Shown in pieces: positions 1,202 to 48,069 of a DNA stretch of 64,000 bases. Where the stretch lies: IMG/VR virus record IMGVR_UViG_3300020419_000013, positions 1-64,000 of that record. One strand, given 5' to 3'. Position 1 is the stretch's first letter. Each line of letters starts with the position of its first letter. The DNA comes from a virus. The position numbers were made by a program, and so were the translations under genes. The notes under the pieces were generated by a model. That model saw nothing but the letters and a program-made list of their open reading frames with translations. It was not told the DNA's origin and searched no databases.

Positions 1202-4200
1202 ATGACAGCGGATCCAAGGTGTTATGGTGGAAGTTACTCTCCGACCATCCCGCAACTACAATCTAATGCACTAGACGCTCAGAATCCTCGTAACATTACG
1301 AGGTATATTCCTAGTGACCCACGATCTAACGTGCAGTCTAGTGACCCTGTGCTTGGAGCAGATGGAAGGTGCTATGGTCCTTTCAGACAAGAGAGTCTTA
1401 CACCTAACCCTTTAGATTCATCTAACCCTATACAGATAACGTTAGTAACACCACCTGCAGCAGAGTCTAGTGGTGCACCAACGTATCAGAATCCTGCAGA
1501 CAACCCTGCTAATAGATGCTATGGTCCTATCCCACTACCCAACAGTGCAGACCGAGGCACATCTCCAGACTTACCTACACCACCACCTGCACCTCCATCT
1601 AATGAGGACATAGATCCTAGAGCAGTGATTAGATCTTTGGTGGGAAGATGTTATCCACCAAGAGCAACAGATGATAGTGGTATTCGTCAACCCGATGTTG
1701 ATATACCTACACCATCTATACCATCACTAACTGTAGACCCACCGATCGATATGATCTGTGACATGTTTCCATACCTACCCTTCTGTCCAGAGTGTGAGAA
1801 GTATGCTACAGATCCTAGGACATGCACAGAATTTCCATTGGGTCTACCTCCTATAGGTGGTGGTATATTTCCACCTACTCTAGGCACAGGTGATAAGAAT
1901 TGTGATAAGTTATGGCAGTTTCAAAGAGATAATCTAGTCAATGATCTTGGCGATGGTAACTGGGAGAGGACTGATACTAAAGAAAGATTCTATTGTCCAC
2001 CAGAGCAATCAAATAGTGGTTGGGCAGCATGTGTAGAGGATGCACTCGAGTGTCTCTTCAAACCATACGTTGATGGTGCATGGAAACCACCAAGTCAAGA
2101 CTGTGTTACCTTCTACCCTAGAGGATATAATGGTAACGTTAAGTCATTCTGTATTGCTAACTGCTATCCTAAAAGAGTTGGTATCTATGAGTATGTAAAA
2201 GGGAAGGGTGCTATCCTTGCATTCAAACCATATGGAAGTGGTCTACACAATCTACTAGGTGTGACTACAAACTATGATGGCACATGGAATGGAAATAAGA
2301 TTGAGAATCCTGGCGGTAACAGTATATGGAATACCACTTCTACTAAAACATATACAGCTACGATAGGTAGTGCTACTGTAACTCTTACAGTCGAGCCATT
2401 CTTAGATGGTGGTGAGTATGATAGTAACTGGTATGCGACATACACTGGCACCTTACCTGCTGTAGGTACAGAGGCATCAGCTACATTTACAGGTGACCTC
2501 GCTAGTTTCAACGTTGCACTCATGGTCATCGAGGGTAATGCTAATGGCACTAACCATGACTATGGCACATCATCCACAGCACCATCAGGATATACTCTGA
2601 CATCGAGTCAACCTGTATTTTATTTGCATGAGAGAAAGAAAGATGATAGATCTGTCCCACTATACAAATACTATTCCTCTGCAACAGTAGATACATTTCT
2701 TACAACTAATCCAGGACAACCAGACGCTGAAGGTGAAGGTGAGAGAGCGACTATGAATGCCTCTCAACAGGGTTTCATTGAGATATTAGGATATGCATAT
2801 GAAGATCCTGCTGCCATGGCACCTTATCTGACTAACGTAGAGAAGGGAATGCCATTGCACAGATACTTGGACAGAATCAAGACTCCTAACACAGTTGTAT
2901 TCTCTGGTAATAATATTGTAGTATCAGGTGGCAGTGTTGATTTTACTATTGAGTGGTCATGGAAAGATACATACAACTCAGCAGGAGTTTGCCTTGATTC
3001 ATTTACTATTGACGGTAGGACTTTTACTCGTAACAATAACTATACTGGTAGGCAGACTGAAAGATTTACTAACATAGGTGTAGGATCATATCCTATTTCA
3101 TTCCAGAATTTAAACAGTAGAAACTCACCACTATCAGATAGAATATACAATGGTGGTAAGTCTATCTGTCTATTGGATGACCTTCATGATGATTGTAATG
3201 GCACCATAAGAATATCTAATATCTCTAAGGCGAACTCAGGAATAACAGAAGATCATGATCACTACTACACTATCCGTAAGCAAACTGTATTAGAGCCACC
3301 TACTAAAGCTTCTAATAGGAATTACTATCTCATTCCTAATGATGTTAGCAATGTCATAGTAATGAATATTGATGTAGAGAAGGGTGGAGCAGGATATAGA
3401 AATACTTTGTTTGCATACATTGAGACAGATGGTGTGCCGAGGTGGGCTCAGCTCTTGGTCGTAGATGCAACCAATCAAACTGGTATGTCACAACATATCA
3501 TACCTATCACTATCCTACAACAATACAAGGGAGGAAACTTAGGGTTTGCCCTTGTGTCTAATGGTGCTCAACTAAACTCATACAATGTAGGTGATACATT
3601 CACATCATTCTCTCAACTATCTGATGGATGGAGGATTACTGGTGTCTCATCAGCAGAATCTAACTACACACTCTTCTCTAATGATGCATTGAATCCTAGG
3701 GGATCTGTAAGTGATAGTAGAGACTACACAGTATGGAAGGGTGACCACTGGCAATGGTGGGAAGATCTGATTGGTGGTGACAGTGACTTTGATGACTGTA
3801 AATTCTGGCATGAAGTCATATGGGCAGGTGGATCAACAACATATGAAGGTATTCAATGTTATGTGTGGGAGAATGACTCACCTACACCTGTAACCAAACC
3901 TATGCTCACTAAGAATGACTGTGATCCTAGATTGTTTAAGACTTCATTCAAAGATGTCATGCTGATGAGAGCTGACTGTGGAGCTCTAGTTGTAGATGTG
4001 ACAGGTAATAGTAGTGACGCAGGATGTGGTAAATGTCTTGGTGAATATCTATTCCAAGTTAATAGGACACAGAAATCTACGATACTACATACTGGAAAGT
4101 TTTCTCTTCGTAGTATGGGTGGTATCACTCAAGGTCTATCGGGTGACTGTATTGTATTTGTATTACAACTATCAGTTAATGGATCTGCTGTTTGGGAAGG

Positions 4201-5554
4201 CAAGTTTAAAGCAGGTGACTGGCCAGAGATAGGAAAGAAACTACACACAGAAGAATTCTTTAGTGTTGTCAAGGATGATGTAGTTAAATTTAAAGTTACT
4301 GAGATCAAGCGTGGTCCTACTGTTGGTAATGTTACACCACGCATAGCAATACTTGATGAGGAGTCTTATCTCTTCGAGAGCACCTTCTCTATGCGTCTAC
4401 AAACGCAAGACGGAGACGCTAGGTCTATTCCATACCCTTCGACTGTAAATCCAGAAGCTGAATCATCCAAAGGAGTTGGTGGAGCAATCACTGGGTTTGA
4501 CATGTGTTACATACACAACAACGAAGACAGACATAAGAATGCAGAGATTGAAGAAGCACAGAAGTGGTATAAAGTATGGGAGAATTCTGCTGCTGTTAAT
4601 ACTGATGCCACTTACAACAACACTACAAACTATACCAAGTATCAGACATGGACTAACCGTAAAGGATCAGTCATTCGTGGATGGGATGGCACAGATAGGA
4701 ATTCATACATTGATACCTATGGTTTCCATACCGATGACAAGTCACAACACTTTAACTTATTGCTCACCAGAATGTTATTCAAAGATGGTAAGACAGGTCC
4801 TCAGTATATTGATGGAGTCAACGCACCTAACGATGTGAAGAGACACATACAAACAGAGACACACTACGCTAGACTACAGAAGTATGCCTCTGATTCTTTT
4901 GCATGGTATGAATCTAAGATGAATGGGTTTGCAGAAGATGCTGACACACAGTGGATGGTTGACAACCTATACAATGGTATGCAACAGAATCCTGAGGTTA
5001 ATACAAGACTTGAGCCAGGTTATTTCATACAGGACTACTGGTTGATACCAGAGGATGATGAAAACCAAGAAGACCATGGCATCGGTGCTAACACTGCTAA
5101 GATCCGTGTTGGTATAACATTCTGGGCAAAGAATGAGGGTTATGGCACAGGTAGTAGACGAACAACTAACTTCTATGCTACAATAGAATTATTGGAAGTC
5201 CTTGATTATGGTGACGGTTACGGAGAAGGTCAGGAGTTTGTATTCTACTGGCCACCAAAGTATACTGATCGCATCACTGATTATTCTACTGCCAATTCTG
5301 TATCACCTTACTCTCCGACGTTAGATCCACATAGATCAGTCTCTGGTAGTTACAATCCTGTAAGTAAAAACATACCTGCAGAAATTGCAATCAACTATGA
5401 GCCAGGTGGAAGAGGGTATAGAGATACTAAGAGACCTGTTTATGATGCATACTATCAAGAGTCACATAATAGGGAATCGATGTATTGGTTTATAGATAAG
5501 AAAGAATACAAGGATAGAGTGAAATTTAAAGTACGTATCAACGGAGTACAGTAA
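1202..5554 (+). CDS. Giant virion structural/appendage protein with RCYG repeats
   Basis: This is a 1450-residue protein, probably a late virion component. The first 150 residues are Pro/Asn/Ser-rich and contain four RCYG or RCYP motifs with Cys at 7, 57, 106 and 150, which defines a repeat of about 50 residues. A cysteine-rich stretch follows (about 190-325). Residues around 480-560 (VPLYKYY ... FLTTNPG ... ILGYAYED) resemble the DUF5648 beta-repeat domain of secreted and cell-surface proteins. The rest is beta-rich with many aromatic residues. There is no signal peptide. A tail fibre or head decoration role is inference. It overlaps the next gene by one base (TAATG). Confidence 0.75.
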   Translation: MTADPRCYGGSYSPTIPQLQSNALDAQNPRNITRYIPSDPRSNVQSSDPVLGADGRCYGPFRQESLTPNPLDSSNPIQITLVTPPAAESSGAPTYQNPADNPANRCYGPIPLPNSADRGTSPDLPTPPPAPPSNEDIDPRAVIRSLVGRCYPPRATDDSGIRQPDVDIPTPSIPSLTVDPPIDMICDMFPYLPFCPECEKYATDPRTCTEFPLGLPPIGGGIFPPTLGTGDKNCDKLWQFQRDNLVNDLGDGNWERTDTKERFYCPPEQSNSGWAACVEDALECLFKPYVDGAWKPPSQDCVTFYPRGYNGNVKSFCIANCYPKRVGIYEYVKGKGAILAFKPYGSGLHNLLGVTTNYDGTWNGNKIENPGGNSIWNTTSTKTYTATIGSATVTLTVEPFLDGGEYDSNWYATYTGTLPAVGTEASATFTGDLASFNVALMVIEGNANGTNHDYGTSSTAPSGYTLTSSQPVFYLHERKKDDRSVPLYKYYSSATVDTFLTTNPGQPDAEGEGERATMNASQQGFIEILGYAYEDPAAMAPYLTNVEKGMPLHRYLDRIKTPNTVVFSGNNIVVSGGSVDFTIEWSWKDTYNSAGVCLDSFTIDGRTFTRNNNYTGRQTERFTNIGVGSYPISFQNLNSRNSPLSDRIYNGGKSICLLDDLHDDCNGTIRISNISKANSGITEDHDHYYTIRKQTVLEPPTKASNRNYYLIPNDVSNVIVMNIDVEKGGAGYRNTLFAYIETDGVPRWAQLLVVDATNQTGMSQHIIPITILQQYKGGNLGFALVSNGAQLNSYNVGDTFTSFSQLSDGWRITGVSSAESNYTLFSNDALNPRGSVSDSRDYTVWKGDHWQWWEDLIGGDSDFDDCKFWHEVIWAGGSTTYEGIQCYVWENDSPTPVTKPMLTKNDCDPRLFKTSFKDVMLMRADCGALVVDVTGNSSDAGCGKCLGEYLFQVNRTQKSTILHTGKFSLRSMGGITQGLSGDCIVFVLQLSVNGSAVWEGKFKAGDWPEIGKKLHTEEFFSVVKDDVVKFKVTEIKRGPTVGNVTPRIAILDEESYLFESTFSMRLQTQDGDARSIPYPSTVNPEAESSKGVGGAITGFDMCYIHNNEDRHKNAEIEEAQKWYKVWENSAAVNTDATYNNTTNYTKYQTWTNRKGSVIRGWDGTDRNSYIDTYGFHTDDKSQHFNLLLTRMLFKDGKTGPQYIDGVNAPNDVKRHIQTETHYARLQKYASDSFAWYESKMNGFAEDADTQWMVDNLYNGMQQNPEVNTRLEPGYFIQDYWLIPEDDENQEDHGIGANTAKIRVGITFWAKNEGYGTGSRRTTNFYATIELLEVLDYGDGYGEGQEFVFYWPPKYTDRITDYSTANSVSPYSPTLDPHRSVSGSYNPVSKNIPAEIAINYEPGGRGYRDTKRPVYDAYYQESHNRESMYWFIDKKEYKDRVKFKVRINGVQ

Positions 5555-5919
5555 TGAGTGGTTTTGGTGAGCAGCCAGGTCGTAAGAGACATAAGGACTG
5601 GGCAGATAAATCTCTACAAAAAACAACAAGAGAATTAAAAGTCCTTCGTGATGTCATTGAAAAGTATAAGGATGATCCAAAGGGTCGTGCTAAGATGCTT
5701 AAGAAGATGAAAAGGTATTGGAATAGTCCTATTCAGACTATCAGAGATCTAGATATGAAACCTAGTGGAAAGAATATAGTTGACGAATTGAGAGAAATAC
5801 CTTATGATAAGATGGTGGAAGACTATCGAGAAGAAGTCGGTATAGATTCTCCCCATGACCCTGTTGATACTACAACAGACGAGGCAGAAAACATTAGAAA
5901 TTATCTAGAAGGTAAATGA
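5554..5919 (+). CDS. Hypothetical basic/acidic helical protein
   Basis: The product has 121 residues. The first two thirds are strongly basic and helical (KRHKDWADKSLQKTTRELK); the tail is acidic (DPVDTTTDEAEN). The start overlaps the stop of the giant structural gene, and its own stop overlaps the start of the halogenase-like gene, so the three are probably translationally coupled. The charge pattern would suit a small scaffold or nucleic-acid binder, but no family is recognised. Confidence 0.7.
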   Translation: MSGFGEQPGRKRHKDWADKSLQKTTRELKVLRDVIEKYKDDPKGRAKMLKKMKRYWNSPIQTIRDLDMKPSGKNIVDELREIPYDKMVEDYREEVGIDSPHDPVDTTTDEAENIRNYLEGK

Positions 5920-7061
5920 AGGTAGCTGTGATCGGTAGAGGTAGTGGTGGATTGATTTCCATCATGAATCTATTGACGTACGACATCCAAGTCGATTGTT
6001 ATTATGATCCCGAAACTTCCCAACTCCCTGTCGGTGAGTCAACCACACCTCAATTTGCATCGCTGATTGAATGCACGTTAGGTTTAACCATTGATGATCT
6101 TATATCTCTTGGTCTTGCTTCACGCAAGAAAGGGATTGAGTTTGTTGGATGGGGTAAGTCTAAGCATTTCTATCATAGATTTATCTATCAAGATGCAATA
6201 CATTTCTATACCAAAACTCTTAACCCATTTCTTCAAGAGAATCTTGAGAAATATAAAGGGGTAAAGTTTATTGGCAAACGTGTTACTGCATTGAATGCAC
6301 TGCAGAATGAATACGATTTTGTTATTAACTGCTCGGGTGCTCTAAGCAATTATAGAAAAGAGATTGACATACCATGTGTTAATAGTGTATTATATTTTGA
6401 CGACCATAAAATACATGGTCATCCAGAGTATACATATCATCTGGCACATGAGTATGGGTGGAAGTTTAGTCTTCCTTTTCCTGAGAAGGGACTTTCTAGA
6501 ACGGGTTACCTCTACAACAGGAAGTATCAAACTCATCTCGACGCAGAGATCCTCTATTCACAAGGGGATCTTTATGAATGGGTGCCTTCATACGCACCCG
6601 ATATGATTGTCAATAACAAGTTGGCACTGAATGGTAACGCTTTACTATTCTTCGAGCCTCTTCAAGCACTTTCACTTCTTCATTACGATATGGTCGCAAA
6701 AAGAATCTGCGACTATATTGTTAATGGCCAAACATTAGAGGAGAAATTGCTAGGTAATCTCTGGTATCGTAGAATGATCGAGGCATACATTGATGCTCTC
6801 GCTTTTCATTATCAGTATGGTAGTGAGCACAATTCTGGATACTGGGAAGAGGTCAGTAAAAAAAGTGTCACAAGGGTTGGACACAAATGGTGGAATGATG
6901 GTATGCTTATACATCAGGTGCGATCTTCTTGGGAATCGGGTAGGAATACTCACCTAACAAGTCACCCTGATTACTACTACGCACCCGATCACACAGGCAT
7001 CTTCGGCATCACTTGCATGTATCAATTACATCAGGGACTGTCAGGAGGTGCACACCGTTGA
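5916..7061 (+). CDS. Short flavin-dependent tryptophan halogenase-like protein
   Basis: A 381-residue FAD protein related to the PrnA tryptophan halogenase family, which uses FADH2, O2 and chloride or bromide to halogenate an aromatic substrate. Visible signatures are the N-terminal dinucleotide motif GRGSGG (7-12), PVGESTTP (38-45), a Lys in ASRKKGIEF (K71, aligning with the active-site Lys of PrnA) and FEPLQ with Glu 247 at the position of the catalytic Glu. It is about 110-150 residues shorter than the two copies at 45-48 kb, and WxWxIP is replaced by a GWKFSLP variant. Substrate unknown; a related flavoprotein oxidase is possible. Confidence 0.75.
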   Translation: MKVAVIGRGSGGLISIMNLLTYDIQVDCYYDPETSQLPVGESTTPQFASLIECTLGLTIDDLISLGLASRKKGIEFVGWGKSKHFYHRFIYQDAIHFYTKTLNPFLQENLEKYKGVKFIGKRVTALNALQNEYDFVINCSGALSNYRKEIDIPCVNSVLYFDDHKIHGHPEYTYHLAHEYGWKFSLPFPEKGLSRTGYLYNRKYQTHLDAEILYSQGDLYEWVPSYAPDMIVNNKLALNGNALLFFEPLQALSLLHYDMVAKRICDYIVNGQTLEEKLLGNLWYRRMIEAYIDALAFHYQYGSEHNSGYWEEVSKKSVTRVGHKWWNDGMLIHQVRSSWESGRNTHLTSHPDYYYAPDHTGIFGITCMYQLHQGLSGGAHR

Positions 7062-16363: not shown

Positions 16364-17347
16364 CTAGTAACCCCCTCCATAACCAGATCCGCTACTTCCA
16401 CTACTACTGCTACCAGAGCTACTACTGCTGCTACTGCTAGATGAAGAAGAAGAGCTACTGCTGTCACTAGTGCTACTATCCGTGCTTGTGTCTGTGCTTG
16501 TGTCTGTGAATGCTCCACTTGAATCATAAGGTGATAATGTTGCTGCAACGTTTGTGCCATTCTCTGTAGACCCAGTTGCAGGTGTATACACTCTTGAGGT
16601 AAGTTGCTGTTGTGCCAAGAATGTGAGAGATGGTGTTTTTCCGATTTCGGTCGAATATTCCTTTTTGGTCGGTTTGAAGATTTCTTCGACTGTGCGATAA
16701 GTTTTCTTCGTTGACCTTCCTAACCCATCTATGTCTAATTCGTCATTTGGTAGATATGAGACTAAACTGAAGAATTCCTCTACAAAGTCATCTAGGTATT
16801 CTTGACGTAAAATGTAAATAAGACGTTTTCGCTCATTTTCCTTTAATTCGTGTTGGTAGTAAGAAACAGGATTTACGAGATCTGCCTTGGGGACTACTAC
16901 ACCGTCTGGAAACGAATATTCAAAGTTTTCGGGGACTTCTAGATCTGCAGGTAAGTGCACTCTACCGTTTCTTTTTACTTCTTGTGTTATCCAATGTCTA
17001 GTTTGACCAATATCACTAGGATTACTAAAATTGTATTTTCTCATTATATACTGAGTCAATTCATGCTCATTCATTGGCCAATCGTTGTATAGATTGGTTA
17101 TTTCGTTGCATAGTAAAATAACCCAGTCATATTTGGTATCGTTATAAAACTTCTGAGCGAGTTGATCTGGTCTTTCAGCATTCTGAATATAATACTTCTC
17201 AAAACCCAAAATGATGTCTTCTAGCTCATCACGGATCTTAACTCTTCTGAATATATTCTTTGCATTAACATAAGGAGACCCGCTATCTTGACGATAACCA
17301 GTTTGTCTTATATTAATATTAGGCAGATATGAGAAATAATTTGACAT
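16364..17347 (-). CDS. 53: Baseplate wedge protein gp53 with serine-rich tail
   Basis: 327 residues. The N-terminal 240 residues match T4-like gp53: MSNYFSYLPNI, then VKIRDELED, AERPDQLAQKFYNDTKYDWVIL, and NEITNLYNDWP, the conserved core. gp53 joins wedges into the hexagonal baseplate. The last 55 residues (about 272-327) are low complexity, with long Ser runs, Thr/Asp repeats and a Gly/Tyr end, encoded by a triplet-rich tract at about 16370-16500 that could slip during replication. It overlaps the gp48 stop by one base and is co-transcribed with it on the minus strand. Confidence 0.88.
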   Translation of the reverse strand: MSNYFSYLPNINIRQTGYRQDSGSPYVNAKNIFRRVKIRDELEDIILGFEKYYIQNAERPDQLAQKFYNDTKYDWVILLCNEITNLYNDWPMNEHELTQYIMRKYNFSNPSDIGQTRHWITQEVKRNGRVHLPADLEVPENFEYSFPDGVVVPKADLVNPVSYYQHELKENERKRLIYILRQEYLDDFVEEFFSLVSYLPNDELDIDGLGRSTKKTYRTVEEIFKPTKKEYSTEIGKTPSLTFLAQQQLTSRVYTPATGSTENGTNVAATLSPYDSSGAFTDTSTDTSTDSSTSDSSSSSSSSSSSSSSSSGSSSSGSSGSGYGGGY

Positions 17348-20099: not shown

Positions 20100-20810
20100 A
20101 TGCCTTTACCCAAACTTGCATTACCTGAGCATGACCTTACGATCCCTCTTACAGGTAAGAAATTATCTTACCGCCCATTCCTTGTTAAGGAAGAGAAACT
20201 CCTCTACCTCGCAATGGAATCGAAGAATGAGAAGGAGATGGTTAAAGCAGTCAAGACAATTATCAAAAACTGTACATCACTTTCAGAGAAGGACGTTGAA
20301 AAACTTGCGACTTTTGAAATTGAGTATGTTTTCCTCAAGATCCGCTCAAAGGCGGTCGGCGAGGTCAGTGAATTCAAGGTAACCTGCCCAGACGATGAAA
20401 AAACACAAGTAGATGTAAAAGTCCCACTTGATCAAGTCGAGCTTGAAGTACCTGAAGAGCATGATCCTAAGATTATGTTTACTGATGATGTAGGTGTCCT
20501 TATGAAGTATCCTTCACTTGACATCTTTGTTCAGCAAAACATGACTGAAGGAGATCAGACTATTGATGATGTTTTTCAATTAGCAGCGGGTTGTATTGCC
20601 CAAGCTTTTGATGGTGATGAAGTTTATGATAGTTTCACTAAGAAGGAAGCAGTTGATTTTCTCGAGAGTCTAAATTCAGATCAATTCGCTAAAATCCAGA
20701 CATTCTTCGAGACTATTCCAAAACTTACATACACTATGACTGTGCGAAACCCTAAAACCAAAAAAGATAATGATATAACATTTGAGGGATTAGCAGCTTT
20801 TTTCGCATAG
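20100..20810 (+). CDS. 26: Baseplate hub assembly protein gp26
   Basis: 236 residues of the T4_baseplate (gp26) family: LPLTGKKLSYRPFLVKEEK-type N-terminus (here IPLTGKKLSYRPF), CTSLSEKDVEKL, and VFLKIRSKAVGE. gp26 functions in hub assembly. The last codons GCT TTT TTC GCA TAG contain a classical -1 slippery heptamer T TTT TTC, and the -1 frame stays open into the next coding region. That would give a longer fusion, as in tail assembly chaperone pairs that precede tape measure genes. Confidence 0.85.
   Translation: MPLPKLALPEHDLTIPLTGKKLSYRPFLVKEEKLLYLAMESKNEKEMVKAVKTIIKNCTSLSEKDVEKLATFEIEYVFLKIRSKAVGEVSEFKVTCPDDEKTQVDVKVPLDQVELEVPEEHDPKIMFTDDVGVLMKYPSLDIFVQQNMTEGDQTIDDVFQLAAGCIAQAFDGDEVYDSFTKKEAVDFLESLNSDQFAKIQTFFETIPKLTYTMTVRNPKTKKDNDITFEGLAAFFA
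20798..20804 (+). other. Candidate -1 ribosomal frameshift site (T TTT TTC)
   Basis: The heptamer is in the correct frame (GCT TTT TTC in gp26) and lies four bases before the gp26 stop. After slipping, the -1 frame reads through CGC ATA GCC CTG TTG without a stop into the next frame. A 6-bp hairpin (GATTCT, CTAG loop, AGAATC; 20822-20837) lies 17 bases downstream, further than the usual spacing. The predicted fusion is 302 residues. Confidence 0.55.
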
Positions 20811-20815
20811 CCCTG

Positions 20816-21007
20816 TTGCACGATTCTCTAGAGAATCTTTATAAGACGAATTTTGCGTTAATGCAACATCATAAGTATTCTTTGACCGAGTTAGAGAATA
20901 TGATCCCATGGGAAAGAGATGTTTACGTTAATTTGTTACTAGGTTATCTTCAAGAGGAAGAAAGACGACGTGCAGCAGAGAATAACAGAAATCGAGTAAA
21001 TCTTTAA
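20816..21007 (+). CDS. gp51-like hub assembly segment, probably a -1 frameshift extension of gp26
   Basis: At most 63 residues if started at TTG 20816, or 49 from ATG 20861. The sequence TNFALMQHHKYSLTELE and MIPWERDVYVNLL resembles the C-terminal part of phage tail assembly chaperones (helical, acidic and basic clusters, ending EEERRRAAENN). No ribosome site precedes the TTG. The conserved-looking TNFALMQHHKYS spans the ATG, so translation by frameshift from gp26 is more likely than independent initiation. It overlaps the start of the giant gene by one base. T4 gp51 occupies the same neighbourhood. Confidence 0.6.
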   Translation: MHDSLENLYKTNFALMQHHKYSLTELENMIPWERDVYVNLLLGYLQEEERRRAAENNRNRVNL

Positions 21008-23787
21008 TGAGTGCAATTAGGTCATTCGTAAAAGTTAAAGCGTTTAAGTCCACGACCTCTGTAGGTCGCAACATGAATGGGCTTAGAATGAGTGTGAACA
21101 GACTCGGACGGACGACCACTAGTATTGGTAAATCATTTGAGTCAACCTTTCAATTAATTGACTTTCAAAAGAGTTTTATAATTGAAACGAAAGAAAGAGA
21201 TAAGGCATACGAAATAGCGAAAGATAAAGAAAAGAAGTTTCTCGCAGCTCGATACTTAGTGCAAGAAAGAAGAGCAAAGTTTAAACAGAAACGTGAAGAC
21301 TCTGCAAAACTAGCAAAGAAACTTGCTGAGGAAAAGAAAAAGATACAAGAGAAAAGAGGTAAAGAAATATTAGCTCCTTTCCAGAAGATGCTTGCAAGGA
21401 TTGCAGGTTTCTTTGGTAGTCTATTTGGGGCATTTGCCATATTTGGTGGTTACTCATGGATGGCGAAGAATGGAGAGGCAATCAAAACTGTATTCAGAGT
21501 AGTTGCATCACTAGTAAAGTTTACATATAAGATTGCTAGTTTTGGTATAGGTAAGGTCTTTAATGGCATGGTTAACATGTTTGGGACTGGCGTGCCTGGT
21601 GAAAATAAGATACAGAGAGTATTCAGATTCTTTACAGGTGGTTTGCAATTCCTAGTTGGTCTTGCAGCTCTTAAAAGTGCTCAATACATTCTTATGCCAT
21701 GGAAGTTGTTTGGTGATGTACGTGCGTTAACAAGTATTTTCCAAGATGCTAAGACAGCTGAAGATGGTGCTAATCAAGCATCACAGAGAGTAAAAAGTGG
21801 ATATTATGATAAACAGACTGGTCGTTTCTATACAAAACAAGAGTATAATACGATGCGTAAGTCTGCTAGGAAACAACCTGGCGGTATAAAATCATTTGAG
21901 AATAGAGTTAGACCAACCACAAAGATTGGTGGTATGAGAATGGGTGCTACCAGACGTATGGGTAACGCATTCAAAGGAATTAAAGGAAGGATACCTGGCG
22001 GTGGTGCTACGATGTTAGCAGGTGCTACATCTGCAATAGGTGGAATATCAAGAGCATTAGCAGGAGATCAAGAAGGAGAAGCAGCAGGCACAGCAGTAGG
22101 AGCAGGTGTAGGAAAGGCAGTTGGTGGTATAGCAGGAGCAGCAGCAGGTGGAGCATTGTTACCATTCTTAGGTCCTTTTGGTCCTATGATAGGTGCTGCT
22201 ATTGGTGATTTCTTAGGTGGATTCATTGGTAGTAAGATAGGACCTATTGTCCAACCTATCTTTGAGCCTATGGCACGAGCATTTGGCATGATGAAGGAGA
22301 TATTCTTAGCACCACTTATGCCAGTGATTGAGCCAATGAAAGAGTTACTTGGCACATTCTTCAGTGCATTGGGTAATATTATTAGCACTGTCTTGAAGGC
22401 ATTTACTCCTATCATGAAGTTTGTGGGTCTCGTATTGGGCACAGGTATTAAATTAATATTTAAGACACTATCATTTACATTCAATCTAATTAAGAATATT
22501 GTTGCATTCACTATAAATCCTATAGGATTTGCATGGGATGTCATAAGACGTAGGGATCCTGGCGAAGGCATAGATCTAGATCAGGTAGCAAATGCAAAAG
22601 GATCAGAGAAAAAACCAGATTTTGAGCAGTTTGCTAAGGGTGGAAAATATGTTGGAAAGTTTTTCAATGCTGAGGTTATTACAGGAAATGCAGATGAAAA
22701 CTTAGTAGCACCTAAGGTCGTAATACAGAAACCAAATGTAGCAAAACCAGAAGAATTTGCTGTAGGTGGAATATTTAGATTTGCTATTAGAAAGTCATTA
22801 GCTTTCTTTGCAACAGGTATGATAGCTGTCCTTAAAAAAGCAGTAGCAAAACTAGAATCAGGAGATAAACCAGAAGAGAAAGCTGAAGGTGGTAATGTAA
22901 AAGTCCCATATGACTTTGTAAAAGCAAAGTTAGGTATAGATCCAGGCGTATGGGATACCTATAGAAATACAATAGGTGCCATTGAGTCTGGTAATAATTA
23001 CACTGCAAAAGGTGGCAGTAATGATCATTATGATGGTAGATATCAAATGGGTGCCATGGCAAAGTCTGATGGTGCAAGGTTGTTTGGTATTGAAGATCCT
23101 GGTCATAATCTTGCAACGAGACTGTTTTTCAGAAGGAGTCCACAACTACAGGAGAATCTATTTGCAGGATATACTGCTGCGAATATGTCATACTTAACTC
23201 CTTATAAAGCGTTTATTAATCAACCTAAGTTAGATCAGATGGCAATCTTGGGTTACGCACACAACACAGGGTGGAATGCTGCATTGAAATGGTTAGAGAC
23301 AGGTAAGGTATCTTCAGATGGATTTGGCACAAAGAGCACCAAATTCTATGACGCATTGAAAAAAGCATTTGGAGATCCAAGTGGTTTCCAACCTACTATT
23401 ATGCCAAAACCTATCCTTGAGCCTACAGTAAAACCGTCTAAAGAGGACTCAGATTCAGAGTTAGAAATGAAAGATGATACGCAACCGACAGCAGAAAAAG
23501 GAAATTTACTTGACAATCTAGAAAACTTACTTAAGAAAGTGGGTGATATGTTTAAGGGTGTTAAAATGCAAAGTCCTCTTACACCTCCTTCAACAGTAAG
23601 TAATGTCACAGATTATAGCAATAAAATAAAAACAAGTGCACAACAACAAAAAGATTTAGAAAATGGTGCAATGATGGCAGGTAACATTGTCCCAGTCTCT
23701 GTCCCAGTGCCAATAAATAATAGTGCTACCCCCACTTCAAACCCTGTCCAAATCTTTACTCCCTTACATCCAGCTATTCATAAGTAA
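21007..23787 (+). CDS. Tape-measure-like tail protein with lysozyme/transglycosylase-like domain
   Basis: 926 residues. Order: basic N-terminus; long charged coiled coil (about 55-115); hydrophobic segments (130-250); a glycine-zipper stretch (about 350-410) and further hydrophobic helices; then, from about 640 to 790, a globular domain with AIESGNNY (catalytic-type Glu 660), HYDGRYQMG and AILGYAHNTGWN, the pattern of lysozyme/lytic transglycosylase domains that cut peptidoglycan. Long helical tail proteins after chaperone genes are tape measures (T4 gp29 role). The lysozyme domain, found in gp5 in T4, appears here instead. One-base overlap with the next gene. Confidence 0.72.
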   Translation: MSAIRSFVKVKAFKSTTSVGRNMNGLRMSVNRLGRTTTSIGKSFESTFQLIDFQKSFIIETKERDKAYEIAKDKEKKFLAARYLVQERRAKFKQKREDSAKLAKKLAEEKKKIQEKRGKEILAPFQKMLARIAGFFGSLFGAFAIFGGYSWMAKNGEAIKTVFRVVASLVKFTYKIASFGIGKVFNGMVNMFGTGVPGENKIQRVFRFFTGGLQFLVGLAALKSAQYILMPWKLFGDVRALTSIFQDAKTAEDGANQASQRVKSGYYDKQTGRFYTKQEYNTMRKSARKQPGGIKSFENRVRPTTKIGGMRMGATRRMGNAFKGIKGRIPGGGATMLAGATSAIGGISRALAGDQEGEAAGTAVGAGVGKAVGGIAGAAAGGALLPFLGPFGPMIGAAIGDFLGGFIGSKIGPIVQPIFEPMARAFGMMKEIFLAPLMPVIEPMKELLGTFFSALGNIISTVLKAFTPIMKFVGLVLGTGIKLIFKTLSFTFNLIKNIVAFTINPIGFAWDVIRRRDPGEGIDLDQVANAKGSEKKPDFEQFAKGGKYVGKFFNAEVITGNADENLVAPKVVIQKPNVAKPEEFAVGGIFRFAIRKSLAFFATGMIAVLKKAVAKLESGDKPEEKAEGGNVKVPYDFVKAKLGIDPGVWDTYRNTIGAIESGNNYTAKGGSNDHYDGRYQMGAMAKSDGARLFGIEDPGHNLATRLFFRRSPQLQENLFAGYTAANMSYLTPYKAFINQPKLDQMAILGYAHNTGWNAALKWLETGKVSSDGFGTKSTKFYDALKKAFGDPSGFQPTIMPKPILEPTVKPSKEDSDSELEMKDDTQPTAEKGNLLDNLENLLKKVGDMFKGVKMQSPLTPPSTVSNVTDYSNKIKTSAQQQKDLENGAMMAGNIVPVSVPVPINNSATPTSNPVQIFTPLHPAIHK

Positions 23788-26516
23788 TGGATAAACCTAA
23801 GACCACTATTAAAAAACCTACTCTTTATAAGATGGTATCTTTTAAGGGAGTGGATAATAGTGCGAGTAAAGAAACCAAGGATGTACAATCGGGTTTGAAG
23901 GCAAATATAAGTGCTGTCAATAGTCTTGGTGGCACACTAAACTCTCTTTCATTAGTTGCTAATAAGATGGCAGGCACTATGAAAGAGATTGTAGACTTTC
24001 AGATATCAGAGAGAGGTATACAGGAGAGATATAGGAAGAGACGTGATGAGGATGAGAAACGTGACAGAAATAGAGAAACAATAAGGAAGAAGAAAGAAAC
24101 TCAAAGAGAGAATAGAGACGAAGCTGCAACTGTAGAGAAAACATCTAATAAATTTGTTGAAAGACTTGGATCAGTAACTAAGGCAATGTTTGGAGGTTTC
24201 TTTGAGACATTCTCGAAGATTGCTTCTTGGTTATTCACAGGTATAGTTAAGTTTGCAATATTTGATTTCTTGCTGAAGAATCCAGAAAAAGTCAGACGAT
24301 TAGCACAGGGTTTGTATTCGATAGGTAAGTGGGCATTTGGTGTAATTAGTTTCCTTGGGACATCTGCAGCAAATGGTCTTATAAAGTTTCTAGAGAATCC
24401 ATTAAGTTTGAAAGGTTTCTTTGGGGTAATGCAGTTTGCGTTATCATTAGCACCTTTGTTTGCAGGGTTTGCTTTACTTTCCAATCCAATAGCAGCACTT
24501 AAAGGTATTAAGGCAGTAGTAGGCATGCTATTTGGCATGGTGAAAAACCTAATGAAGGCAGGTAAACTGGGAAGCAAACTTAAGAAATTTGGAGGAGCAG
24601 TTTTAGGTAGTCGTCTAGGTCGTGGTGTAGCATTTGGTGGTGCAGCATATGCAGCTGCACGCATGAGTGGCATGGATCAGGCAGAAGCAATAGGGACTGG
24701 TGTTGGAGCAGGAGCAGGATCACAGGTAGGTGGTGCTATTGGTAGTGCCATTGGTGGACCTGCAGGTGCAATGTTAGGTCAAGCAGCAGGTGCATTTGTT
24801 GGTGGAGCAGCAGGTGGAGGTATTGCTAAAGCAATGGAGCCTATTATTGCACCATTCAAAAGATTCTTTGGACAAGTTGCTGAAGTATTCGCAGCAGTCT
24901 TCACACCCATACAGGAGGCAGCAGGAGACTTCTTTAAGGCACTTGGTAATGCATTCACTCAGGTCTTAGATTTCATTGAGCCAGCAATGCCCACTATCAA
25001 GAAAGTTGCCACATTCTTTGGCTCAGCAGCATTTGCACCCTTGATTGGATTGATGAAAGCATTGACTTTTGTATTAGGTTTCTTTGCAGGTGGATCGGAT
25101 AAAGAGAAGAAAGCTCCGAAAAAAGAGAAACCAAAAACAAAAACTACAAAGACTACCACTAAGAAAACTATATCGAGTCGATTTGATATGGATTCTGGTA
25201 AGGGATATATTAACGATAAAGAAGTTTCTACAGATGAATATGTTGCTTACTTCAACATGAGTCGAGCTGAAAAGCTTGCTAATTATGGTGTACCTGCGAA
25301 AGCAGAAGGTGGTGTTGTAGTTGTCCCAGAAATGGCAGAAGGTGGAGAAAGTGCAGATTTAGGATTATCATCTGAAGATAATGAAGTGAATGGTGCACTA
25401 GGTAATGTCTTAGGATATATGAAAAAGGTGGTCGGACTCCTAAAGGGAGGAAACGGCGAAGGTGGATGGATGAATCCTAGTAATTGGTTTGCAGGTGGTG
25501 GTAAATTAGGTGGATGGATCAATGGTCCTCAGTCTGGTTATCCTGTAAGTTTAAATGGTGGTAAATCTACATCATTTATTGGTCACGGTTTGGAGTGGGT
25601 TGGTTATCCTAAGAAAGCAAGTGGTGGATCAGCATTTATCGTCCCATTCAATACACCTAAGACAAAATCAAATGCAGGTCTAACTGGTCAGAGAATGAAA
25701 GAAGCAAAGAGTAAAGGTTATGCTTTACCTTTCGCTGCAGGTGGTGAATATAATTCATATCAAGAGTTGATTGCAGCAGGTGGAAGTGTAGAGGATACTG
25801 CTGCGGGTGATTTTAGAGCTGTTGAAATTTATGGACCTTGGGAATACTATAGGACAGGTTTCTTAGGATTAAAGAAAGGAAAGAGGAGAGCTGTAAATAA
25901 ATTCTATGTAGATGGTGACTATAAGCAGGCACAAATGCCTATCGCTGATTATGTTAATATGAAGATGGGTTGGAATGAGACCAACGCAACAGCAACTTTA
26001 AAGTCAAAAGCTGAGATTGAAGAGAAGAATAAGAAAAGGAAAAATCTAAGAGGACAGGGTGCTAAAGATAGAGGTAGAGAGGGTGGTAACTTTAGTGGTG
26101 ACCAACAGATGAATGAGAGAGGTGAATATGCATTTAAAAATAGAGAAAATGAGAAAAAGATATCACCTTATAAAAAGTCAGGTGATCTAGACAAACTAAA
26201 GATGTATCTTTCTGATGAGAAAGAAGTCAAGAAGTCTGGTGAAACAATAAATGAATTTAGAATACAAGAGAATGCTGAGTTACAAAAGATGGTAACTGAA
26301 AGTAACGATGCCATGGCATCTGCCGTTGAGCAACAGAATCAGATGGTAGCAAGTATGGCATCACAGTCTAGTGGAGGTGGTGGTCAACCAGAGGATGTCC
26401 CTATTATTACACCTAACTTCTCACAATGGAATGAAGCAGATCCATTCTTTGTTTCTAAATTTAATACCTTTAGCAGCAATACACCTGATATGCACTGCAC
26501 TAACAAACTTAAGTAA
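23787..26516 (+). CDS. Second tape-measure-like tail protein
   Basis: 909 residues with the same plan as its neighbour: an N-terminal helical region, a very charged coiled coil (about 72-120, Arg/Glu/Lys-rich), hydrophobic helices, a glycine-zipper region (about 290-350) and more hydrophobic helices to about 435. A Lys/Thr-rich linker (near 440-460) and a Gly-rich, polar C-terminal half follow. No lysozyme-like motif is visible. It may be an ancient duplicate of the preceding gene; the pair probably forms the tail interior or hub. One of the two should correspond to gp29. Confidence 0.65.
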   Translation: MDKPKTTIKKPTLYKMVSFKGVDNSASKETKDVQSGLKANISAVNSLGGTLNSLSLVANKMAGTMKEIVDFQISERGIQERYRKRRDEDEKRDRNRETIRKKKETQRENRDEAATVEKTSNKFVERLGSVTKAMFGGFFETFSKIASWLFTGIVKFAIFDFLLKNPEKVRRLAQGLYSIGKWAFGVISFLGTSAANGLIKFLENPLSLKGFFGVMQFALSLAPLFAGFALLSNPIAALKGIKAVVGMLFGMVKNLMKAGKLGSKLKKFGGAVLGSRLGRGVAFGGAAYAAARMSGMDQAEAIGTGVGAGAGSQVGGAIGSAIGGPAGAMLGQAAGAFVGGAAGGGIAKAMEPIIAPFKRFFGQVAEVFAAVFTPIQEAAGDFFKALGNAFTQVLDFIEPAMPTIKKVATFFGSAAFAPLIGLMKALTFVLGFFAGGSDKEKKAPKKEKPKTKTTKTTTKKTISSRFDMDSGKGYINDKEVSTDEYVAYFNMSRAEKLANYGVPAKAEGGVVVVPEMAEGGESADLGLSSEDNEVNGALGNVLGYMKKVVGLLKGGNGEGGWMNPSNWFAGGGKLGGWINGPQSGYPVSLNGGKSTSFIGHGLEWVGYPKKASGGSAFIVPFNTPKTKSNAGLTGQRMKEAKSKGYALPFAAGGEYNSYQELIAAGGSVEDTAAGDFRAVEIYGPWEYYRTGFLGLKKGKRRAVNKFYVDGDYKQAQMPIADYVNMKMGWNETNATATLKSKAEIEEKNKKRKNLRGQGAKDRGREGGNFSGDQQMNERGEYAFKNRENEKKISPYKKSGDLDKLKMYLSDEKEVKKSGETINEFRIQENAELQKMVTESNDAMASAVEQQNQMVASMASQSSGGGGQPEDVPIITPNFSQWNEADPFFVSKFNTFSSNTPDMHCTNKLK

Positions 26517-28909: not shown

Positions 28910-29026
28910 ATGAGTACTACATCCACTAAAAAGGCAATAAAACGTTTAATCAAAAATAAAGAGGACTGGTCACCTGCAGAGGTGGCATATGCTAAGATGG
29001 TTAAGAAATCACTTAAAGATGATTAG
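28910..29026 (+). CDS. Tiny basic helical protein
   Basis: 38 residues, MSTTSTKKAIKRLIKNKEDW and a second helix ending KKSLKDD. It precedes and overlaps the cpeT-like gene by eight bases, so it may act as a translational leader for it. Function unknown. Confidence 0.55.
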   Translation: MSTTSTKKAIKRLIKNKEDWSPAEVAYAKMVKKSLKDD

Positions 29027-29486
29027 TTTTGAAGAAGCATTATGCGGACATTATACTAATAAAGCTCAAGCAACGTCAGATCCACAGAAGTGGCCATGGG
29101 TCAACATAGAGTGGACTGAAGTTAAAGAAGGTCAAGTTTTAGAATGTAAATCTTGGTATGAGTATGAAGGTCCTAATAAACCTTATAAACATTTCAGAGC
29201 AAAGATAAAAAGAATTCATGAAGATATCATTGAATGCGACACAATAGATCTTAAGAAAAATAAGAAAGGTTGTGGATTTGTTTTTGTAAAGATGGATGAC
29301 GGCACATGGTGGGGTGAAACCAATGGTCCTTGTGTTGTCAATGATATAAACATAACTGCACTTGCAAGATTCAATGGCACCGATTACTGGTCATTCGACA
29401 ATGGTCGAAGACTTACATCAGGTGCTTTTGTTTGGGGAAAAGAGGAGAAAGATGGTGAATTTCATTTCACTAAACTCCCTAAATAA
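29019..29486 (+). CDS. cpeT: CpeT-like phycobilin lyase
   Basis: 155 residues from the ATG at 29019, which overlaps the preceding stop; a start 30 bases upstream adds an unrelated segment. The barrel pattern of the CpeT/CpcT family is visible: LCGHYTNKAQA, WPWVNIEWTEV, GCGFVFVKMDDGTWWGE, NGPCVVND and WSFDNGRRLTSGAFVWG. CpeT/CpcT proteins attach or handle bilin chromophores on phycobiliproteins. Cyanophages carry cpeT, probably to maintain light harvesting or pigment turnover during infection. The small size is normal for the phage form. It points to a cyanobacterial host. Confidence 0.8.
   Translation: MISFEEALCGHYTNKAQATSDPQKWPWVNIEWTEVKEGQVLECKSWYEYEGPNKPYKHFRAKIKRIHEDIIECDTIDLKKNKKGCGFVFVKMDDGTWWGETNGPCVVNDINITALARFNGTDYWSFDNGRRLTSGAFVWGKEEKDGEFHFTKLPK
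29479..29485 (+). promoter_or_regulatory. Late promoter box CTAAATA upstream of gp5
   Basis: CTAAATA overlaps the end of cpeT, 22 bases before the gp5-like ATG. Confidence 0.55.
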
Positions 29487-44999: not shown

Positions 45000-46475
45000 A
45001 TGAAGATTTACATTATTGGTGGTGGGTCATCTGGATGGATGACAGCAACCACAATGCTGACAAAATTTCCCGAAGCAAACATCACAGTCGTAGAGTCGCC
45101 TGATACACCCCCTGTTGGTGTAGGTGAGTCTACGACTCAGTATTTTAGGATATGGGCAGAATATGTAGGACTCAAAGATGAAGAGTGGATGCCTGCATGT
45201 GATGCCACATATAAGATTAGTGTAAGATTTAGTAACTTTAATAAGGTAGATGACACACCATGGCAATATCCATTTGGTTATCATATCCAAGATCTACCTC
45301 AACCTGATGTTTATTTTTGGAATGCATATAAGAATAACTGGAGTAATGATAAATTTGCCCGAGAATATTTTGTATCAGCAGAAGCAGCAGAAAATAATTT
45401 ACTACCCATCAAGCATCCAAACTTTAATCTTAAAAAGAATACTGGATTTCATTTTGATGCAGTAAAGTTTGCACACTGGTTAAAAGACAACAAATGCCAG
45501 AAGGTAAATCATATTATTGGTAAGGTAGATGATTTTGAGAAGGATGGAGACGAAATAAAATATCTATGGATAGATGAGAAACAACATGAAGCAGATTTAT
45601 ATTTTGATTGCACTGGATTTGCATCAGTACTTAATAAGTCTGAGTGGTTAGATTATAGTGAGTGGTTACCAAATGATACAGCATGGGTAACACGTCTAGA
45701 CTATAGGGAAGGACATAAGAAAGAGGATCTCAAATCATATACACAGTGCACAGCATTGAGTAGTGGATGGGTGTGGACAGTGCCCACATTTGCCAGAATT
45801 GGGACAGGATATGTATTCTCTAGTAAGCATCAAGATCATCAGAGTGCATTAACAGAGTTTTCAAAATTTCTTAAGTATGATACTGATGGATTTAGGAAAA
45901 TACATTTCAAGACAGGCAGAAAGAAAGAAGGATGGGTTGGTAATGTAGTGTCTATTGGTTTATCATATGGATTCCTAGAGCCATTGGAATCTAATGGTCT
46001 GTTATCAACACATGATAACTTGTTAAGATTCTGTAGGACGTGGAAACCGAACACCACTCAAATGATGAGAGATACATATAACAAGGCGATAGCATTTGGT
46101 TTCGATGGGTTTGCAAGTTTCGTTGCTCTTCATTATGCTCTTACTCAACGTAGGGATTCTTCTTATTGGAGATATGTCTCAAGTATTAGATATCCTGATA
46201 AGGGGATAAATGAAGCAGCAAGAGTCACAATGATGGAAGAGTCACATAATTTTTCCAGTAAACTAAACTTCAATCACAGCAGTGGTGCTTCACTGTTTTG
46301 TGTCATGGCAGGTCATGGATGGAATCCATTTAATGATGTCATTGAAAGTGAGATTAATTTTCATGGTGGAATACCTGATGACTCACATCTAAACAGTTGG
46401 ACACATGAGTGGAATCGTGATAGACTGGGAGTTAATCCTTTAGATTATTATAATAGGACATTGTATGCAGTATAG
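45000..46475 (+). CDS. Flavin-dependent tryptophan halogenase, copy 1
   Basis: 491 residues, similar in size to PrnA/RebH enzymes. FAD-binding GGGSSGW at 7-13, PVGVGEST at 38-45, the WxWxIP-type motif WVWTVP at 257-262, the active-site Lys 72 in ATYKISVRF and Glu 327 in FLEPLES are all present. It should convert FADH2, O2 and halide to hypohalous acid and halogenate an aromatic substrate such as tryptophan, free or peptide-bound. No flavin reductase is visible nearby; the host would have to supply one. It overlaps the second copy by 11 bases. Confidence 0.88.
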   Translation: MKIYIIGGGSSGWMTATTMLTKFPEANITVVESPDTPPVGVGESTTQYFRIWAEYVGLKDEEWMPACDATYKISVRFSNFNKVDDTPWQYPFGYHIQDLPQPDVYFWNAYKNNWSNDKFAREYFVSAEAAENNLLPIKHPNFNLKKNTGFHFDAVKFAHWLKDNKCQKVNHIIGKVDDFEKDGDEIKYLWIDEKQHEADLYFDCTGFASVLNKSEWLDYSEWLPNDTAWVTRLDYREGHKKEDLKSYTQCTALSSGWVWTVPTFARIGTGYVFSSKHQDHQSALTEFSKFLKYDTDGFRKIHFKTGRKKEGWVGNVVSIGLSYGFLEPLESNGLLSTHDNLLRFCRTWKPNTTQMMRDTYNKAIAFGFDGFASFVALHYALTQRRDSSYWRYVSSIRYPDKGINEAARVTMMEESHNFSSKLNFNHSSGASLFCVMAGHGWNPFNDVIESEINFHGGIPDDSHLNSWTHEWNRDRLGVNPLDYYNRTLYAV

Positions 46476-48069
46476 ATCATTTTGTATTGTAGGTGGTGGG
46501 TCATCTGGTTGGATGGCAGCAGCAACAATGAAGAAGGCATTCCCAGAGTGTGAGGTCAGTCTCATACAACCTGAGGGTAGAAATATTATTGGTGTAGGAG
46601 AGTCTACTTTAGGACATATCAATAGGTTTTTTAGATTTCTTGGATTACATGACAAGGAGTGGATGCCATATTGTAATGCCACATATAAATCATCTATTGC
46701 ATTTAAGAATTTTAGGACAGGAGAGGGAGAGAGATTTCAATATCCATTCGGACGTATAGATCGCAACGATTATCGTAGTGATTATATGACATTCTTTGAG
46801 TTGCAAGTAAAGTATCCACACTTGTATCCACCCGAAGAGTTTGCACGTTTCTTTAATCCAAATACTATTCTGGCAGAAGAGAATAAACTAACGTCTGATT
46901 ATATTTCCGAAGAAATGCGTAATTGGAATTTTGGTCAAGACACTGCATACCACATGGATAGTCACAAGTTTGGTGAGTATCTACAAAAGAAATTTCCTGA
47001 GGTAAAAGTATACACAGGTAATGTAATCAATGCCACTCGAGGTGAGACTGGTGACGTTATCACTATGAATACAGATAGTGGTGATAGAATCATGGCAGAT
47101 CTTTATATTGATTGCACAGGTTTTAAATCCCTGATCCTAGAAAATATGATGGGATCGAAGTTTGTATCATTTAATGATGTATTGTTTAATGACACAGCGT
47201 GGTCAGCAAAGGTAGAGTATTCAGATCGTATCATACAGATGGATAACTATACAGATTGTGTAGCAATGTCTAATGGATGGATCTGGAATATACCACTATG
47301 GGATAGAGTGGGGATGGGTTATGTATTCAGTCAGAAATATCTTGACCCTGACATAGCACAGGCAGAGTTTATGGGTTATATAGCACAACGCTATTCGCCC
47401 AAAATTGCCGACAATGCTGATTATCGCCTGATTAATATCAGACATGGTAAGAGAGAGAAAGCATGGGTCAATAATGTTGTAGGTATTGGACTAGCATATG
47501 GTTTCCTCGAGCCACTAGAGTCTACTGGACTCATGACTACACATGAGAATCTATTATATCTCGTGGATAGTCTCAAACGTCGTCCTATTACAACTAAGAT
47601 TGATATCGATAGTTATAACTACACTGTAGATCATGCGATTGAGTCTATGAAATACTTTATCGCTATGCATTATTTGTTATCTCAACGTCAAGATACAAAG
47701 TATTGGGTAGATGCTACTCAAAACACATCTATGTTTAGTAATCATGACTTAACACAATACATGAATGATTGCCTAGGATGGCATTCTATGCTAGAATCAC
47801 GAAGGGAATACTTCCAACTCTATGAAGGGTTAAGAAAGAATTTCTGGGCAGATAATAAATTTGATGGACTAATTTATATCGCAGCAGGTCAAGCATACAG
47901 ACCAATTAATGAGCATAGTGTGGATGAAGCACACTTTATTTTCCCACGTCGCAAAGGTGAGGTGGAAAGAGTGCATCAAGATTGGCAGCGTGACCGTAAA
48001 GCGATATATAATCAGGTGAGTCAACTACCAACACACTATGAGTATCTAAGGGATAACATCTATGGTTAA
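46465..48069 (+). CDS. Flavin-dependent tryptophan halogenase, copy 2
   Basis: 534 residues. GGGSSGW at 10-16, IGVGEST near 42-48, Lys 75 in ATYKSSIAF, WIWNIP at 272-277 and Glu 349 in FLEPLES keep all halogenase signatures. It shares the core but is clearly diverged from copy 1, so different substrates or positions are likely. Length matches PrnA. It overlaps copy 1 and the DUF6065-like gene, consistent with one operon. Confidence 0.88.
   Translation: MQYRSFCIVGGGSSGWMAAATMKKAFPECEVSLIQPEGRNIIGVGESTLGHINRFFRFLGLHDKEWMPYCNATYKSSIAFKNFRTGEGERFQYPFGRIDRNDYRSDYMTFFELQVKYPHLYPPEEFARFFNPNTILAEENKLTSDYISEEMRNWNFGQDTAYHMDSHKFGEYLQKKFPEVKVYTGNVINATRGETGDVITMNTDSGDRIMADLYIDCTGFKSLILENMMGSKFVSFNDVLFNDTAWSAKVEYSDRIIQMDNYTDCVAMSNGWIWNIPLWDRVGMGYVFSQKYLDPDIAQAEFMGYIAQRYSPKIADNADYRLINIRHGKREKAWVNNVVGIGLAYGFLEPLESTGLMTTHENLLYLVDSLKRRPITTKIDIDSYNYTVDHAIESMKYFIAMHYLLSQRQDTKYWVDATQNTSMFSNHDLTQYMNDCLGWHSMLESRREYFQLYEGLRKNFWADNKFDGLIYIAAGQAYRPINEHSVDEAHFIFPRRKGEVERVHQDWQRDRKAIYNQVSQLPTHYEYLRDNIYG

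Follow-up and report, generated by a model that had tools for sequence, protein, structure and literature searches.

A probable programmed -1 frameshift joining the gene 26-like and gene 51-like frames of a cyanophage tail assembly chaperone

In the stretch of viral DNA analysed here (64,000 nt, hereafter the window), a gene 26-like ORF is followed by a frame that resembles part of T4 gp51, and this arrangement raises the question whether the second frame is a gene of its own or the C-terminal part of an extended gp26. A sequence-only reading of the window had proposed that a programmed -1 frameshift joins the two. The virus record comprises 67,102 bases and has T4-like tail genes whose closest counterparts are in cyanophages; the best annotated relative is cyanophage P-TIM40. 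In 2022, Vladimirov, Gautam and Davidson (Virology 566:9-15) reportedly described frameshifting as conserved in several T4-like groups, with T4 using genes 26 and 51. According to the papers that cite this work, the concept of a frameshifted T4-like chaperone has already been published (Vladimirov et al., 2022), the TAC-N genes of T4-like phages are known to contain poly-T slippery sequences (PMC12846349), and some T4-like phages dispense with the frameshift and encode the short protein and a longer fusion in two genes (PMC10885494).

Predicted slip site and reading frames in the window

The gene 26-like ORF (20100-20810, plus strand) starts with an ATG at 20100 and encodes a putative short tail assembly chaperone (TAC-N) of 236 aa that ends at the TAG at 20808-20810. 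Direct reading of the end of this frame gives GAG GGA TTA GCA GCT TTT TTC GCA TAG. The presumed -1 shift site T TTT TTC (20798-20804, plus strand) thus stands in the canonical X XXY YYZ phase of the gp26 frame, as the sequence-only reading had stated, but the spacer between heptamer and stop is three bases and not four as given there. After the heptamer, the -1 frame reads FF-RIALLHDSLENLYKTNFALMQHH... and remains open until the stop at 21005-21007, in agreement with the earlier claim that it is open across the junction to 21007. This frame (20804-21007, plus strand) comprises 67 codons and a stop and would add a C-terminal domain (T or TAC-C) to give a long form of 302 aa. The window has 54 ORFs of 100 aa or more, and these contain 36 zero-frame X XXY YYZ heptamers, of which the one at 20798-20804 is the only one that lies less than 60 nt from a stop and also has a -1 extension past that stop (64 codons).

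As judged by family matches, the gene pair is located directly upstream of two tape-measure-like ORFs. The first (21007-23787, plus strand, 926 aa) overlaps the stop of the T domain as TAATG and matches an endolysin-type family (phrog_90, E = 3.8e-141) and, more weakly, tail length tape measure families. The second (23787-26516, plus strand, 909 aa) matches phrog_1200 (E = 3.3e-77) and the tail length tape measure family phrog_167 (E = 2.4e-6). In phage lambda, the small gene that directly precedes the tape measure gene has a -1 frameshift close to its end, which leads to gpGT, a C-terminally extended minority form of gpG (PMC5009743). The present locus resembles gpG/gpGT in the position of the frameshift, here predicted from sequence alone, near the gene end and upstream of a tape measure gene; it differs in its slip sequence T TTT TTC and in a longer short form that belongs to PF12322, and no sequence match between the two systems was seen.

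Conservation of the heptamer and of an upstream Shine-Dalgarno-like element

Related loci (L001-L083) comprised 80 loci from viral contigs, whose gp26 proteins were 46-100% identical, and three phage records. All 83 loci, which share ancestry and hence are not independent events, contain an identical T TTT TTC at a distance of exactly 10 nt from the gp26 stop; in Pelagibacter phage Mosig, the heptamer lies 31 nt ahead of a later stop. At the codon level, we analyzed 78 representatives that differed in more than 20% of codons. The Phe codons at the slip site were TTT followed by TTC in all 78, whereas the other conserved Phe columns of gp26 all mixed TTT and TTC, the commoner codon reaching a share of 0.53-0.89. 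T TTT TTC is otherwise a rare spelling of Phe-Phe in these loci (6 of 325 pairs at other positions), and synonymous sites near the conserved positions vary freely. Both the heptamer and the open -1 junction, on whose persistence in close relatives the sequence-only reading had staked its proposal, were kept in all close relatives examined. In T4 and Serratia X20, whose gp26 requires no shift and which served as a control, Phe-Phe is spelled TTC TTT, which is not slippery.

Scans with gp26 of Vibrio and Rhizobium phages as queries added few loci. Among distant phages, T TTT TTC was found in Vibrio phages nt-1, D483, and 1.081.O, Aeromonas phage Ahp1_CNU-2021, Stenotrophomonas phage Ps15, and Rhizobium phage IG49, T TTT TTG in Rhizobium phage RHph_Y68, and T TTT TTT in Sinorhizobium phage phiM7 and Methylophilales phage Melnitz. 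Every distant phage with a U-rich heptamer encodes the C-terminal domain after it in the -1 frame. No canonical X XXY YYZ heptamer was found in the Ackermannviridae (Maynard, allotria) or in Vibrio phages K364 and K369. A gp51-like -1 domain follows gp26 in these phages as well (L090, 2001-2911; L103, 1501-2426; L093, 1902-2905; L107, 1483-2223), and K364 has a TAATG overlap in place of the heptamer.

Upstream of the slip site, a Shine-Dalgarno-like GAGGGA (20784-20789, plus strand), which encodes Glu-Gly, was singled out by codon-pair conservation and anti-Shine-Dalgarno energy as a candidate 5′ stimulator; the spacing from GAGGG to the heptamer is 9 nt. All 82 loci with Glu-Gly upstream of the heptamer spell it GAGGGN or GAAGGR (GAAGGA or GAAGGG), compared to 223 of the 359 Glu-Gly pairs elsewhere in the same loci (62%). 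The alternative spellings GAAGGT and GAAGGC account for 136 of these 359 pairs and for none at the element (Fisher p = 2e-15, a value that ignores shared ancestry), and the Glu codon is GAG in 74% of cases at the element vs. 26% elsewhere in the same loci. The anti-Shine-Dalgarno duplex energy reaches its regional minimum at -17 to -14, i.e., at this element. Phage S-RSM4 lacks the Shine-Dalgarno-like pair and has TCT GGT in its place. The element is thus nearly invariant and a candidate stimulator of frameshifting. We found no description of it in the literature consulted, in which Vladimirov et al. (2022) is represented by the papers citing it.

With respect to RNA structure, RNAalifold on 26 sequences returned no pairs that would indicate a conserved downstream structure, and an Rfam search of 20700-21100 found nothing. 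The window sequence alone folds somewhat better than shuffled sequences (z = -2.62), and a local hairpin GATTCTCTAGAGAATC (GATTCTC/GAGAATC) is present at 20822-20838, about 17 nt after the heptamer, but is not conserved in relatives. A downstream stimulatory hairpin or pseudoknot was therefore dropped as a candidate. In dnaX of Escherichia coli, the slip heptamer A AAA AAG is flanked by a Shine-Dalgarno-like stimulator some 10 nt away on its 5′ side and by a hairpin downstream. The present locus resembles dnaX in the spacing of the Shine-Dalgarno-like element and differs from it in the heptamer and in having no conserved downstream hairpin.

A run of six T in all of these loci, extended to as many as eight in Methylophilales phage Melnitz, might also let RNA polymerase slip and thereby alter the length of the mRNA, which would yield a long form by another route. 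We regard this as highly improbable. Six T are short for slippage, and bacterial transcriptional slippage usually needs about nine or more. Moreover, the run is kept in the phase of a tandem slip and is mostly followed by C or G, and a Shine-Dalgarno-like element 9 nt upstream suits ribosomes only.

The downstream frame as an extension of gp26 or as a separate gene

The protein encoded in the -1 frame matches phrog_634 (E = 1.1e-28) and the C-terminal part of phrog_150 (E = 3.1e-5), and hhalign aligned it with T4 gp51-type proteins (E = 3e-6); a Pfam search with this C-terminal domain gave no meaningful family. In most GenBank records, the frame is treated as a separate small gene gp51, annotated from an internal Met (P-TIM40, S-RSM4, and others), or it is left out. 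Such a gene could start at an internal ATG or TTG or be translated by coupling to the gp26 stop, and the former would fit the 66 of 83 loci whose -1 frame has an ATG as its codon 19. The same ATG is missing in the other 17 loci, two loci contain no ATG within the first 20 codons, and none of the 83 has an NTG start in the -1 frame ahead of the heptamer. In the window, the frame has a TTG at 20816 and its first ATG at 20861, inside the conserved part, which bears out the earlier statement that no ATG precedes that part.

Protein conservation sets in directly at the heptamer (FFR[IVL]AL.H..LE.YY..NFALMQHHKYSLTELENMIPWERE), and within codons 2-18 of the -1 frame the third positions change most (0.556 vs. 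0.368 and 0.287). The first predicted helix spans residues 2-22 and would be disrupted by a start at codon 19. No Shine-Dalgarno sequence is evident at the internal start (median 0.2 kcal/mol), although the start of gp26 itself is also weak (median -2.9). Furthermore, a separate gp51 would leave both the invariant heptamer and the Shine-Dalgarno-like pair unexplained, and in T4 gp51 the same domain is fused. We therefore consider an independent gene in place of an extension to be very unlikely. Since the codon-19 ATG exists in 66 of 83 loci, additional internal initiation there could nevertheless supply some separate gp51 besides the extended protein.

The long form of T4-type phages is a single in-frame gene, so that a frameshift or sequencing error might in principle have split one intact gene into gp26 and gp51. 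Since every related genome, whether isolate or contig, shows the identical split, we rejected this explanation as next to impossible.

Taken together, the sequence evidence argues for a programmed -1 ribosomal frameshift at 20798-20804 that would generate a short chaperone of 236 aa and a long one of 302 aa, a reading to which we assign a probability of about 0.92. When a ribosome translating gp26 arrives at T TTT TTC, pairing between the upstream GAGGGA and the anti-Shine-Dalgarno end of the 16S rRNA would favor backward movement. With both tRNAs-Phe re-paired on TTT TTT, some ribosomes would then continue in the -1 frame. The majority would terminate at the TAG and release the 236-aa short chaperone, and a minority would produce the 302-aa long form with its helical C-terminal domain. 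By analogy to lambda gpG/gpGT, the tape measure protein might be covered by many short and few long copies that recruit tube subunits. If so, deposited genomes that start gp51 at an internal Met or omit it would need corrected annotations, and an abundant marine phage group would offer a defined test case of frameshifting.

Relation to T4 gp26 and gp51 and to other tail assembly chaperones

The sequence-only reading had suggested that a fused form would connect the cyanophage pair with T4 genes 26 and 51, and the predicted long form indeed corresponds to T4 gp51 along its length by PF12322, phrog_150, phrog_634, and hhalign. The gp26 of the window matches PF12322 (T4_baseplate, E = 3.7e-66) and phrog_150 (E = 9.8e-71). 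PF12322 likewise matches both T4 gp26 (E = 8.8e-64) and T4 gp51 (E = 3.9e-52, residues 1-201), and profiles of the two T4 protein families (A1-A2) align with each other (E = 1.3e-14). Since the alignment of the A1 profile (T4 gp51 type) with the single gp26 sequence of the window by hhalign was weak (E = 0.012), the link between gp51 and gp26 rests on PF12322, phrog_150, and the A1-A2 alignment. T4 gp26 stops at position 235 of phrog_150, which corresponds to the frameshift point in the cyanophage, and T4 gp51 reaches position 280 and also matches phrog_634 (E = 1.2e-23), the family of the cyanophage C-terminal domain. By these endpoints and the phrog_634 match, T4 gp26 corresponds to the short form, and T4 gp51 is the in-frame fusion equivalent to the long form. 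The two T4 genes, which sit on opposite strands, are paralogues that encode the short and the long form separately.

As far as they are described in the citing papers, the TAC-N and TAC-NC proteins of T4-like phages share with the present pair the gene family (T4 26 and 51), the short and long forms, and a poly-T slippery sequence. T4 itself differs in that it has two separate genes and no frameshift, according to the account in PMC10885494 and to our sequence comparison. A plausible and somewhat favored generalization is that in marine T4-like Kyanoviridae an invariant T TTT TTC is preceded, at a fixed distance of 9 nt, by a near-universal GAGGGN or GAAGGR, and hence that frameshifting in their hosts is set by anti-Shine-Dalgarno pairing and not by downstream RNA structure, with the T4 lineage having swapped this control for gene duplication.

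For further insight into the fold, gp26 was modeled with AlphaFold2 (mean pLDDT 84.7), and the model was compared with known structures; no solved structure related by sequence was found for gp26 of the window or for T4 gp51. The top Foldseek hit was the HK97 tail assembly chaperone, a weak match (E 0.55, probability 0.63). Re-alignment ranked the HK97 chaperone (2ob9, Z 7.7) and YqbN (3klu, Z 7.3), which we take to be a prophage tail chaperone, first. Both align with residues 1-88 of the model, over 85 and 86 residues, respectively, but share only 8-9% identity, and gp26 has about 150 extra residues with a second domain. Z values of 7-8 are modest and taken alone may reflect a common arrangement; that two chaperones of the same kind rank at the top agrees with the other evidence for a chaperone fold and serves as supporting evidence only.

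The gp26 short and long forms are thus likely tail assembly chaperones, as indicated by homology, layout, and fold. The comparison with lambda G/GT drawn in the sequence-only reading holds in these same three respects, namely the tape-measure-like genes that come next, the two chaperone structures, and the homology to T4 gp51. T4 has long been named as an exception to the rule of a short and a long tape-measure chaperone (PMC5009743). On the reading favored here, the cyanophage gp26/gp51 pair would join the general rule that long-tailed phages make both forms.

Elsewhere in the window, three ORFs (5916-7061, 45000-46475, and 46465-48069) match phrog_2928, a tryptophan halogenase family, and two of the three form a tandem right after tail fibre genes. 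Genes for a ferredoxin and a CpeT-like antenna protein (512-1192 and 28989-29486) are host-derived, photosynthesis-related functions typical of cyanophages. A 1450-aa ORF (1202-5554) matches one family of unknown function, phrog_26996, over its full length, and the minus strand encodes a baseplate wedge-like protein with a long serine-rich C-terminal tail (16364-17347).
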